This document shows positions 58,815 through 64,000 of a DNA stretch of 64,000 nt, piece after piece (position 1 is the first letter of the stretch; the number at the start of each line of letters is the position of its first letter). This DNA comes from Verrucomicrobiota bacterium. GTDB lineage: Bacteria > Verrucomicrobiota > Verrucomicrobiia > Chthoniobacterales > UBA10450. The notes beneath the pieces were generated by a model, which was given only the letters and a program-made list of their open reading frames with translations, was not told where the DNA came from and searched no databases. The translations under genes were made by a program, and so were the position numbers. The stretch lies in the NCBI GenBank assembly GCA_003219415.1, contig QHOS01000020.1, forward strand, positions 1-64,000, read 5' to 3'.

Positions 58815-61800
58815 TTAGTGAAAATCGTGCGACTCGCTCCCCACGAGTTCCGCATGGGTAAGCGGTTTGATCTCCCGCGCTTTGATCAAAATCACGTTGT
58901 CCGAATTCTGCACTTCGCCCTCGATGAGCAGAAAGGCTTCTTCAGTGATCACGAGGCGAAAGTGTTCAAACAAGTCAGGATCCACAATTGCATTTGAAAC
59001 ACCGGTCTCGTCTTCCAGGCTGACAAACACAAAGCCCTTCGCCGTACCGGGACGCTGGCGGCAAATCACGTTTCCGGCGATTTGGATGATGGAACCATGT
59101 CGTGCGCGCGGAAGGTCGATTGCGCGCCAAATATTCGGCAAACTTTCGCGCAATAGCTTCATAGGATGCGGGCCGGTGGTAAGATTCATCGTGTCATAAT
59201 CCGCTTTCACGCGCTCGGGTAACGTCATTGGCGGTAGGGGAGCGCGGGCACCCCGCCCGGTACCGCCAGTCCGGCTCGGACTTTCGGCGCCCTCGCCGGA
59301 AAGCTCTCGATGAGTATCACGCGAGGCGCGTGACACAGCGGGCGAGGCGTCCGCGCTCCCTAGCAAATCGTCATGCAATGTTTCTTCCACATCCCACATC
59401 GCCGCACGGCGATGCTCGGCAAAACAATTCAGCGCACCCAACTCCGCTAATGTGCGCAATTCATCTTTTGGGAGCGGGATACGTCGCTTGAAAGCCTCCA
59501 ACGAATCGAATTGTTGTTTTTTTCGTTGCCTAACGAGTTCTTCAGCGTGTTCCTCGCGTAATCCGCTCACGACACAAAATCCCAGGCGCACGGTGTTGTC
59601 ATCGACAACCGTGCAGCGCCATTCGGATTGCGAAACGCAAACCGGCTTGATCTTCAAGCCATGCCGCTGCGCGTCCTTCACAATCGTCGCGGGGTTGTAA
59701 AAACCCATCGGCTGATTGTTCAAAAGGCTCGCGTAAAATTCCGGCGCTCGATGCACTTTTAAATACGCGCTGCCATACGCGAGAATGGCAAAACTAATCG
59801 CGTGCGATTCCGGAAATCCGTAAAGCGCAAACGACGAGATGGACTGAACGATTTTATCGATCTTCTCACTGGTCACACCTTTGCGTTCCATCGCCATGCG
59901 CAATTTTGCGCAGACCTTGTTCATCCGTTCTTCGGAACGATGAAAACTCAGTGCGCGTCGCAGCTCTTCCGCTTCGTCGCCGGAAAAATCGGCCATTACC
60001 ATTGCGATCTTGAGCATTTGCTCCTGGAAAAGCGGAACGCCAAGGGTGCGTTTTAAAACAGGTTCCAGGCGCGGATCAAAATATGTCGGCGGTTCGCGTC
60101 CAGCCCGGCGCGCGAGATACGGATGCACCATATCACCTTGAATCGGTCCTGGCCGGATGATCGCCACTTCGATCACCACATCGTAAAAACATTTCGGTTT
60201 CATCCGCGGTAAGATGGCCATTTGTGCTCGACTCTCGATTTGGAAAACCCCGATCGTGTCGGCGCGCTGCATAATCTCGAACGTCTTCTCGTCATCTTTC
60301 GGGATGTGCGCCAAATCGAGCGGCCGGCCCCGTTCGCGGCATAACTCAAACGCGTCCTGCATCACCGACATCATGCCGAGGCCTAACAAGTCCACCTTCA
60401 CGATGCCCAGGTCTTCGCAATCATCCTTGTCCCATTGCGCCACCACACGACCTGGCATTGAGGCGTTTTCCAGCGGCACAAAGGAACTGAGCTTGTTCTG
60501 GCAGATAATCATGCCACCAGAATGCTGGCCAAGGTGTCGTGGCAATCCATAAATTGCGCGATAGAGCCTGACGAATGCAGGCATGCGCGGATGATTTTTC
60601 GGCAAGCCTGCCTGTTCGATCTGCGATTCGAGTTCGAGCGTGTGCGGGAAATCGCCACTGGCAAACAGATGGGAGAAACGATCGATAATGCTTGGCGAAA
60701 AATTGAGCGCTTTGCCGATCTCGCGTGCCGCACTGCGTCCCCGGTAACTGATCACGTTCGCCGTCATCGCGGCCCCGTGTTTCCCGTAGCGACGATAAAT
60801 TTCCTGGATCACGGCTTCACGCCGGTCGCCGCTGGGAAGATCGAGATCGATATCCGGCCAGCCTTTACGGCTCTCGTTTAGGAATCGTTCGAAGACGAGA
60901 TGATTTTCCACCGGATCGACCGGCGTAATCCCGAGGCAAAAACAAACCGCGCTGTTCGCGGCGCTGCCCCGGCCTTGGACCATGATATTGTGTTCGCGAC
61001 AGAAATTGACGATGTCCCAGACGATCAAAAAATAACCGGGAAACCTGAGCTTGGTAATAAGTGCAAGTTCTTCTTCGAGCTGGTGCTTCACCTTGGTGTT
61101 GATCGCAGCATAACGTTGTTGCGCGCCAAACCAGACGATAGTGCGCAAGAATGAATCCATTGTATGACCCGCTGGCACCGGGTATTCGGGAAATTCGTAC
61201 CCGAGATTTTCGAGCGAAAACATGAGCCGCTCGGCCAGGCGCGCCGTATTTTCAATCGCTTCCGGCAAATCCGCGAAAATTGCTCGTATTTGCCGATCGC
61301 TCTTCAGATAGCGCTCGGCATTTTGGGTCAGCAATTTTCCAGCAGCATCCAAATGCGTGTGCTCTCGAATACAGGTGAAAACATCCAGCACTTCGCGCCC
61401 GTACGGCTTCGCGTATTTCACCCCGTTTGTTGCCAGGAGCGATAATCGGTATCCGCGTGCCAGATCGATCAGTTCGCGATTAGCTCGTTCTTCACCCCGA
61501 ATGAAATGCCGCTGAATTTCAACGAAAACATTTTCGCAGCCAAACGTGTCGATCAAAAATCGGGCGCGATCCGCAGATTTGTAGGGCGTTTGACTCGCTC
61601 GCTCCCGCTCGCTCGATTTTTCAATCTGCCCGTCCATGTCGCTCGCGTCCCCGCGGCTCCATTCTGTGAAACGCCGGGAAGAATTGGCGTCTGACACAGA
61701 CGCCCTACAATTTGCGAACGAGGCGTTGAACAACGCAATAAGTCCTTTCGCAAATTCCGACAGCTCATCCCATCGCACCGCGCATTTTCCTTTCTCACTG

Positions 61801-62093
61801 CGCAGATGCGCCTTGGTCAGCAGTTCGCACAAATGTTTATAGCCGGTGCGATTTTCAACCAACACAGGAAGAACTGCACCGTCTTCCATCAACAATTCGC
61901 AGCCAATGATCGGGCGGACATTATGTTCACGCGCAGCGACGGAAAATCGTTGCGCACCATAAACCCCGTTGCGATCTAGCAACGCCATCGCCGGCATTTC
62001 CAGCTCGGCGGCGACCTCAGCTAATTGCTCTGGGAATGAACCGCCGCGCAAAAAGCTAAATGCGCTGCACGCATGTAACTCGATGTATGGCAT
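58815..62093 (-). CDS. dnaE2: error-prone DNA polymerase III alpha subunit DnaE2, with two in-frame repeat-derived insertions
   Basis: YIELHACSAFSFLRGGSFPEQLAEVAAELEMPAMALLDRNGVYGA; VQGRGSAANSAVCFCLGIT; GWPDIDLDLPSGDRREAVIQ. Confidence 0.95.
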   Translation of the reverse strand: MPYIELHACSAFSFLRGGSFPEQLAEVAAELEMPAMALLDRNGVYGAQRFSVAAREHNVRPIIGCELLMEDGAVLPVLVENRTGYKHLCELLTKAHLRSEKGKCAVRWDELSEFAKGLIALFNASFANCRASVSDANSSRRFTEWSRGDASDMDGQIEKSSERERASQTPYKSADRARFLIDTFGCENVFVEIQRHFIRGEERANRELIDLARGYRLSLLATNGVKYAKPYGREVLDVFTCIREHTHLDAAGKLLTQNAERYLKSDRQIRAIFADLPEAIENTARLAERLMFSLENLGYEFPEYPVPAGHTMDSFLRTIVWFGAQQRYAAINTKVKHQLEEELALITKLRFPGYFLIVWDIVNFCREHNIMVQGRGSAANSAVCFCLGITPVDPVENHLVFERFLNESRKGWPDIDLDLPSGDRREAVIQEIYRRYGKHGAAMTANVISYRGRSAAREIGKALNFSPSIIDRFSHLFASGDFPHTLELESQIEQAGLPKNHPRMPAFVRLYRAIYGLPRHLGQHSGGMIICQNKLSSFVPLENASMPGRVVAQWDKDDCEDLGIVKVDLLGLGMMSVMQDAFELCRERGRPLDLAHIPKDDEKTFEIMQRADTIGVFQIESRAQMAILPRMKPKCFYDVVIEVAIIRPGPIQGDMVHPYLARRAGREPPTYFDPRLEPVLKRTLGVPLFQEQMLKIAMVMADFSGDEAEELRRALSFHRSEERMNKVCAKLRMAMERKGVTSEKIDKIVQSISSFALYGFPESHAISFAILAYGSAYLKVHRAPEFYASLLNNQPMGFYNPATIVKDAQRHGLKIKPVCVSQSEWRCTVVDDNTVRLGFCVVSGLREEHAEELVRQRKKQQFDSLEAFKRRIPLPKDELRTLAELGALNCFAEHRRAAMWDVEETLHDDLLGSADASPAVSRASRDTHRELSGEGAESPSRTGGTGRGARAPLPPMTLPERVKADYDTMNLTTGPHPMKLLRESLPNIWRAIDLPRARHGSIIQIAGNVICRQRPGTAKGFVFVSLEDETGVSNAIVDPDLFEHFRLVITEEAFLLIEGEVQNSDNVILIKAREIKPLTHAELVGSESHDFH
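59235..59362. repeat. inverted-repeat-ended element inside dnaE2
   Basis: taggggagcgcggg ... ccgcgctcccta arms. Confidence 0.7.
61579..61710. repeat. inverted-repeat-ended element inside dnaE2 (132 bp = 44 codons)
   Basis: ttgtagggcgtttg ... cagacgccctacaa arms. Confidence 0.8.
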
Positions 62094-62211: not shown

Positions 62212-63246
62212 TCAGTCATATATCCCATCCAACTTCCAGGTCCCTTGACTTTCATGAGTGAGAACCAGTTCTCCAGCCTCCAGTTGCAAATCCCACTCGG
62301 CGCGGACCCACGATTTTTCATCCCACCAATTTCCGGAAAACAAATACGGGCCGCGTTGATCGACGATTTTGCCACGAACATCTGCACCGCGAACGTGCGA
62401 GGGGCGGTCTTCACCCAACAGGACAGATCCAGATATTGCTGGCCGAAATCTTCGCAGCACTGAGCGCAAAATATGGAGGGGCGAGCTCCTGCGAGCCTCG
62501 GGATATGGTCCCAGCGTCGCAGAGCTCCGTCCTCCATTGCCTGCCGCCGAAGTCAGCGCCCACGAAAACGCCTCTATCCGAAATGCATCTGGCCGATGCG
62601 TTTCTTCCAAAACCGGAGTACCGACACGATCAGCGCCCAGAAGAGCGGTCAAACGAGCAAGTGTTTCTGAGAGCTGATGCGGATTGCGTAATGTAGTTTC
62701 AAATAATCCGAATTGTTCCCTCGCAGGCCTGATCGGCTGTGCGCTCAGCGCGACCCCAACGATCGGATATTCGGATTTAAAATTCTCCAGATGCGTATGC
62801 AGCATCCGGAAGAGAAGATCGACATTGTTGGTCGGCTGCGGAATTTTGAAAATGCGCTCGTAAATTTGTTTATCCGTGAACGTGATGCGCAGGGTCAGTT
62901 CTTTTGCGACGAGATAAATTCCGCTCAACCGGATGGCGAGTTGCTCCAAAAATCGGCGGAGCATGAAGAGAAGTGGCTCGGCCGTTTCAATTTCGTTCTC
63001 AAATTCGAAACTCTCCTCGAATGACTCCGGGGGCCTGATCAGTTTGATTACTCTGCTGGATTGTCCATTTGCCCGCTCCCACATTCGGATTGCTTCCGGT
63101 CCAAGTCGCGCCCCTAGCTGCTGCTTATCCAGCGCCGCGAGCTGACCAATCGTATGAATCCCCCATTTGTGCAGGATTGCTAGAATTTGGCGGATCTCGC
63201 TCTGCCGAGTTTTTGTTGCAGAATTCGACGAATCAGAGCGCTCCAT
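62212..63246 (-). CDS. imuB: ImuB-like protein lacking the N-terminal Y-family polymerase domain
   Basis: thumb-like LHKWGIHTIGQLAALDKQQLGARLG, little-finger region, beta-clamp motif QFGLF (62701-62715), C-terminal RGPYLFSGNWWDEKSWVRAEWDLQLEAG...WKLDGIYD; in-frame stop at 63256-63258. Confidence 0.85.
   Translation of the reverse strand: MERSDSSNSATKTRQSEIRQILAILHKWGIHTIGQLAALDKQQLGARLGPEAIRMWERANGQSSRVIKLIRPPESFEESFEFENEIETAEPLLFMLRRFLEQLAIRLSGIYLVAKELTLRITFTDKQIYERIFKIPQPTNNVDLLFRMLHTHLENFKSEYPIVGVALSAQPIRPAREQFGLFETTLRNPHQLSETLARLTALLGADRVGTPVLEETHRPDAFRIEAFSWALTSAAGNGGRSSATLGPYPEARRSSPLHILRSVLRRFRPAISGSVLLGEDRPSHVRGADVRGKIVDQRGPYLFSGNWWDEKSWVRAEWDLQLEAGELVLTHESQGTWKLDGIYD
62473..62538. 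repeat. hairpin repeat inside imuB (66 bp = 22 codons)
   Basis: atggaggggcgagctcctgcga ... tcgcagagctccgtcctccat arms. Confidence 0.75.
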
Positions 63247-63273
63247 GCGCTCAATTTAAGCTGCTCGTTTATA

Positions 63274-63287
63274 TGTTCAAGAGAACA
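63274..63287. promoter_or_regulatory. LexA-type SOS box TGTTC-N4-GAACA
   Basis: TGTTCAAGAGAACA perfect 5+5 palindrome, 28 bp upstream of the imuB ATG. Confidence 0.75.
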
Positions 63288-63302
63288 TTAAACGAGAACT
63301 TC

Positions 63303-64000
63303 TCAAATGACTTCTACTGGACACTTCGGCAGCGCTTGCAGGAAGGCCCGGCCATAGGGCCTGGTCAGGACGCGACTGTCGAGGATGACAATTATTCCTT
63401 GATCGCTCTTTGTTCGGATCAAACGGCCGACGCCTTGTCGCAGTTTCAGGATCGCTTCGGGCAGCGAATATTCAGTGAACGGATCGCCTCCGCGCTCCTC
63501 GATCAATTCAAGTTTCGCTTCGATCAATGGATGGTCGGGCACGGCAAATGGCAGACGCGTAATAATTACATTCGAGAGCGCCTCGCCGGGAACATCGACG
63601 CCCATCCAAAAACTGTCGGTGCCAAAAAGAACGCTGCCTGGCGTGGTCTTGAATTGATCTAGAAGTTTTCCGCGCGGCGCGCCGCCGCCTTGCACCAACA
63701 GATTGAATTGTTTTTGCGAAAAGAATTGCCCCATTCGCTCGGCCGCCTGCTGCATGCCCCGGTGATTTGTAAAAAGCACGAACGCGCGGCCATCGGTCTT
63801 CTCGACAAAATGCGCGATCCAATGTTCCAGCGCTTCCCCGTAGCCAGCCTCCCGTGGATCGGGCATTTTCTTCACGATGAATATCCTCATCTGTTTCTGG
63901 AAATTGAACGGACTGCCGAGCAGCGCCGGCTCAACTTCATCTGCGCCGATGCGACGACGAAAATAAGCGAGGTCAGAGCGACCGACCGAGAGCGTGGCGC
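63303..64000 (-). CDS. DinG-like ATP-dependent DNA helicase, C-terminal part (5' end outside window)
   Basis: frame open to window edge (ATLSVGRSDLAYFRRRIGADEVEPALLGSPFNFQKQMRIF...); LFTNHRGMQQAAERM, SVLFGTDSFWMGVDVPGEALSNVIITRLPF, RQGVGRLIRTKSDQGIIVILD. Confidence 0.9.
   Translation of the reverse strand, partial: ATLSVGRSDLAYFRRRIGADEVEPALLGSPFNFQKQMRIFIVKKMPDPREAGYGEALEHWIAHFVEKTDGRAFVLFTNHRGMQQAAERMGQFFSQKQFNLLVQGGGAPRGKLLDQFKTTPGSVLFGTDSFWMGVDVPGEALSNVIITRLPFAVPDHPLIEAKLELIEERGGDPFTEYSLPEAILKLRQGVGRLIRTKSDQGIIVILDSRVLTRPYGRAFLQALPKCPVEVI

Follow-up and report, generated by a model that had tools for sequence, protein, structure and literature searches.

The ImuA-ImuB-DnaE2 mutasome is described from M. 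tuberculosis, C. crescentus, and other bacteria. The locus that we describe here resembles it in its three functions, its inactive Y-family ImuB, its clamp motif, the position of the RecA-NT segment, and the ImuB-C domain, as well as in its LexA-type boxes and in the placement of dnaE2 beside the C part and imuA beside the N part of ImuB. The difference lies in ImuB itself, which here consists of two polypeptides encoded in two divergent or unlinked operons; the mycobacterial cassette is also divided, but between genes (imuA'-imuB / dnaE2) and not within imuB (PMC6511836). In mycobacterial ImuB, the RecA-NT motif is the site that binds ImuA (PMC11791113); models assign DnaE2 binding to the thumb and ImuB-C (PMC12926913). 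The partner sites known for ImuB lie outside its dead palm/fingers domain and do not account for that domain's role.

A divided ImuB has a parallel in the DnaE2X systems, where an inactive Y-family polymerase and a standalone ImuB-C have been likened to a split ImuB (PMC12926913); similar operons (PMC6511836) and standalone ImuB-C (PMC3765255) are also on record. In both cases, the ImuB function is spread over two polypeptides and occurs together with DnaE2. In DnaE2X systems, however, the cut comes after the entire Y-family core and is interpreted as ancestral, and RecA takes the place of ImuA, whereas the split described here falls inside the core at the palm/thumb boundary, is derived by fission, and leaves ImuA in place. 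The locus thus has neither the whole core on one chain nor the lack of ImuA that mark DnaE2X systems and standalone ImuB-C. Some ImuBs are reported with structural elements deleted (PMC12926913); reduced ImuBs (Supplementary Fig. S22 of that source) retain hardly more than thumb, little finger, and ImuB-C, the domain content of the protein studied here, and are described as deletions, while in our case the palm/fingers domain is retained as a separate conserved gene. In the literature searched, we found no published description of a family-wide cut inside the Y-family core of ImuB with ImuA kept, and none of the searched papers treats Udaeobacter together with ImuB.

The window, that is, the whole stretch of 64,000 nucleotides analysed from a Verrucomicrobiota bacterium, carries imuBC at 62212..63246 on the minus strand. 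This gene encodes the 344-aa C-terminal half of ImuB: thumb, little finger, clamp motif, RecA-NT-like segment, and ImuB-C. It begins with an ATG and has no internal stop, and sequence and frame context place an in-frame TAA (63256..63258, minus strand) four codons 5' of the ATG. The initial annotation was right to call the ORF intact. Upstream, and conserved as a neighbor, lies the 3' part of a DinG-like helicase gene (63303..63998, minus strand; Helicase_C_2) that runs out of the window and ends, at 63303, 56 bp from imuBC. Downstream by 118 bp and on the same strand lies dnaE2, an error-prone polymerase gene (58815..62093, minus strand; NF004225 error-prone DNA polymerase, 1181.7 bits vs a cut-off of 939); imuBC and dnaE2 are a probable operon.

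The domain content of imuBC agrees with the earlier reading of an ImuB that starts at the thumb. A Pfam search matches IMS_C (PF11799) at residues 82-169 (E 2e-7, over the cut-off) and returns no IMS (palm/fingers) domain, and in a search against solved structures residues 25-181 align to chain positions 189-346 of DNA polymerase IV, its thumb and little finger. The thumb region (63022..63198, minus strand; about aa 17-75) contains LHKWGIHTIGQLAALD, and tiling with an outgroup shows homology to full-length ImuB setting in at the start of this region, that is, at the split point. The features then follow in the ImuB order. The beta-clamp binding-like motif QFGLF (62701..62715, minus strand; aa 178-182) is invariant in the alignment of relatives, and outgroup full-length ImuBs read QFGLF, QFQLF, QFGMF, or QFNLF there. 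Next comes the conserved RecA-NT-like segment HQLSETLARLTALLGADRV (62623..62679, minus strand; aa 190-208), the presumed ImuA-binding site, assigned by its position directly 3' of the clamp motif (as in PMC11791113) and not by a profile; the ImuB-C core GPYLFSGNWWDEKSWVRAEWDL (62287..62352, minus strand; aa 299-320) represents a domain described in PMC3765255 and PMC6511836. Conserved along this order are QFGLF, ETLARLTALLGADRV, and GNWWDEKSW, the RecA-NT segment being placed by position only. Relatives keep QFGLF as well as the C-terminal block GPYLFSGNWWDEKSW.RAEWDL, and both can be recognised in outgroup full-length ImuBs, in keeping with the earlier statement that the clamp-binding and C-terminal parts persist.

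The palm/fingers domain, reported as absent by the initial annotation, is encoded elsewhere in the same genome, which rules out its loss. Searching the contigs of the window genome with the palm/fingers family PF00817 yielded two matches, one being a DinB and the other an ORF of 197 aa (46 bits vs a cut-off of 23.2) that sits at one end of contig C153, directly downstream of an ImuA-like gene. We call this ORF imuBN. A separate conserved ORF for the N-terminal domain was what the initial annotation had named as telling against a truncated ImuB, and imuBN is such an ORF; imuA adjoins it. The ImuA match to NF033429 is 40.6 bits, below the cut-off of 150. All 30 aligned N halves match PF00817, and their profile aligns to residues 13-179 of Pol IV; Foldseek also matches the N half to Y-family polymerases, which adds weak support. 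The protein stops at FLAPLPIETLAMIGAT (...FLAPLPIETL), homology in imuBC starts at about EIRQILAILHKWGI, and a full-length ImuB from another family of the order reads FLADLPVTVLDLSPHAAAVLQKWGI over the split point; the two ORFs are therefore one ImuB cut at the palm/thumb boundary. Together they tile the full-length protein (alignment of halves against outgroups without the G044 row), with at most a few differing linker residues. Homology to the Y-family core is thus complete but distributed over two proteins, PF00817 in the N half and PF11799 in the C half, each above its cut-off.

By alignment, the palm/fingers half appears catalytically dead. In the profile alignment to Pol IV, the N halves have lost the catalytic carboxylates, with Ala/Thr at the Asp-Glu positions of SLDE; the first catalytic Asp falls just outside the aligned stretch, and the N halves read IYLPNF there. 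A palm insert of varying length, at about aa 108-137 of imuBN (L002, 1405-1998, minus strand), occurs in the subclade of the window as well as in a few relatives; most N halves are without it. The assembly also holds a second contig end, C76, with lexA upstream of an imuA that is 93% identical to the C153 copy. The two imuA copies (L134/L138 on C76, L077 on C153; genome G000), both at contig ends of one assembly, likely reflect strain mixing, and the ends of C76 and C153 probably overlap at imuA-imuBN.

The split is old and fixed across the family. We examined 83 genomes from about 14 genera of this family of Chthoniobacterales, including Candidatus Udaeobacter. The N half occurs in 73 of the 83 (74 with G088, which is excluded for its weak match in a 452-aa frame), the C half in 68, and both in 62; a joined frame occurs in none. 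ImuB in its usual one-polypeptide form was thus not encountered, and all 62 genomes with both halves carry two ORFs. Close relatives with a full-length ImuB, which the initial annotation had allowed for, are absent from this set. Six further genomes have the C half alone and 11 the N half alone, likely because of assembly gaps. Named records of split loci are MAGs labelled Verrucomicrobia, Chthoniobacterales, Spartobacteria, and Candidatus Udaeobacter. Outside the family, ImuB is joined in the phylum sample (n = 384 genomes). Within the order, 45 genomes of other families have an ImuB match, and every resolvable case (42/42) is one frame of 484-696 aa; three half-ImuBs (G114, G123, G127) considered as independent splits were rejected, as all three sit at contig ends. 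When the two halves are placed in a tree alongside eight outgroup ImuBs, the family forms one clade (support 100/99), so a single origin of the split is the simplest account. Two fairly complete genomes, G036 and G090, lack imuA, both halves, and dnaE2 all together; this joint absence fits a set of genes that functions as a unit, and loss of linked genes would look the same.

Gene order suggests how the split arose. Wherever the two halves share a contig (21 genomes, without exception), the genes run imuBN< imuA< lexA< ... lptFG< dinG> ... imuBC> dnaE2>. The halves are about 6-17 kb apart, and beyond imuBN come a TPR gene and, in many cases, an aquaporin gene; where lexA is in range in outgroups, they show lexA> imuA> imuB> dnaE2>. 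In the family, imuA directly precedes imuBN and dnaE2 directly follows imuBC, each remaining linked to its part of imuB. One inversion with ends inside imuB and beside the TPR/aquaporin genes would yield the family order; a single inversion is only inferred, because the ancestral order of dinG/lptFG relative to lexA (the far flank) is not seen in the outgroup regions. In the window's subclade (G000, G006, G029), a DegT-like gene stands beside imuBN in place of the TPR/aquaporin genes, and the two operons therefore appear to have moved further apart, both still being kept.

Both halves are under equal purifying selection, and the N half is not decaying. Median dN/dS (Nei-Gojobori) is 0.157 for the N half and 0.163 for the C half, next to 0.195 for imuA and 0.101 for dnaE2; with the same split found family-wide, the earlier argument against simple decay holds. 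Protein distances of the N and C halves correlate (r 0.79), which is weak evidence for interaction because common descent alone suffices and the other gene pairs of the set behave alike (0.67-0.83). AlphaFold models of the single halves are poor (mean pLDDT 50 and 41).

LexA-type boxes suggest shared regulation. The perfect TGTTC-N4-GAACA box TGTTCAAGAGAACA (63274..63287) lies 28 bp before the imuBC start; it confirms the SOS-like box noted earlier, and imuBC looks SOS-controlled. We name the box LexA-type because it recurs upstream of lexA, imuA, and imuBC. The 3.6-Mb genome contains the extended form of the box, TATGTTCN4GAACAT, just twice and the reversed control not at all; beside the second occurrence (L156, G000:C60:23367-23383), no convincing target gene was identified. 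Among 55 family genomes, a box with at most one mismatch precedes imuBC in 41 and imuA, head of the imuA-imuBN operon, in 52 (0.9% of shuffled upstream regions), and in eight joined outgroup ImuBs there is none before the position matching the C part. As the boxes are mostly present on both operons, the two halves should be co-induced by DNA damage. Genus g25 and a few others lack a box directly upstream of imuBC; several genomes without a box right at imuBC have one just after dinG, ahead of an extra gene. In G079, a 645-aa protein of repeated units (L115, 10547-12484) is encoded between dinG and imuBC, right after a one-mismatch box, and is possibly an added SOS gene.

We consider it probable that ImuB is naturally split here and that its halves work jointly within the ImuA-ImuB-DnaE2 mutasome. 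A rearrangement, for which a single inversion is the simplest account, would have broken an ancestral lexA-imuA-imuB-dnaE2 cluster within imuB, between palm and thumb, and left two intact genes: imuBN, the catalytically dead palm/fingers, behind imuA, and imuBC, from the thumb to ImuB-C, ahead of dnaE2. The boxes on both operons would co-induce the halves upon DNA damage. The two proteins would then most likely re-associate non-covalently, palm/fingers against thumb/little finger, in a complex with ImuA and DnaE2, and would do the ordinary ImuB job of tethering ImuA and DnaE2 to the beta clamp; SOS induction, re-association, and the function in SOS mutagenesis are inferred.

imuBC carries the clamp motif and every site that matches a known ImuB partner site; the N half therefore need not join the C half. 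On this rests the nearest live form of the initial idea, a minimal adaptor in which imuBC alone does the clamp, ImuA, and DnaE2 work and imuBN is an independent protein, such as a partner of ImuA or DNA. It would agree with the most reduced ImuBs known, which retain just thumb, little finger, and ImuB-C (PMC12926913), and with the loss of close linkage in the window's subclade, but we judge it rather unlikely: the N half is under as much constraint as imuBC, keeps the entire palm/fingers layout, and ends where imuBC begins. It is possible, but less likely than not, that fission made the vestigial palm/fingers a separate mutasome subunit, co-produced with ImuA from an operon of its own, that would serve as an AND-gate on error-prone synthesis or act separately with ImuA; under the AND-gate reading, mutasome assembly would need two independently made parts.

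Two further explanations are highly improbable. The window genome is in 253 contigs, with the halves on different ones and some strain mixing, as might be expected of an assembly or binning artefact, but the split falls at the same residue family-wide; the 62 genomes with both halves, 21 of them on single contigs and several from 20-60-contig assemblies, rule out the assembly error that had been raised as an objection, and dN/dS of about 0.16 for each half speaks against a decaying pseudogene. The halves also face away from each other on one contig, like the ends of an inverted segment, and a switch that flips these 6-17 kb could rejoin imuB in part of the cells; exact inverted repeats between the break regions, however, never exceed 13 bp in the 21 genomes, the orientation is the same in all 21, and start, stop, and, for the most part, LexA-type box are separate for the two halves.

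A naturally split ImuB separates by evolution a domain that is equally constrained; its role thereby becomes directly testable, as each half can be removed, expressed, or purified alone. Annotated one gene at a time, these genomes would seem to encode a truncated ImuB plus a stray fragment of DinB. The Candidatus Udaeobacter group comprises very common soil bacteria, and ImuB is made there from two operons with damage-control boxes.

The dnaE2 gene of the window has a feature of its own. A palindromic repeat, TTGTAGGGCGTCTGTGTCAGACGCC, at 61686-61710 falls within an in-frame insert of dnaE2 (58815-62093, minus strand) that is poorly conserved. The dnaE2 genes of relatives (e.g., L063) have different in-frame inserts, in which peptides such as RRDAET.TRDA recur; from their sequences, these inserts look as if repeat elements had been put in frame into coding genes.
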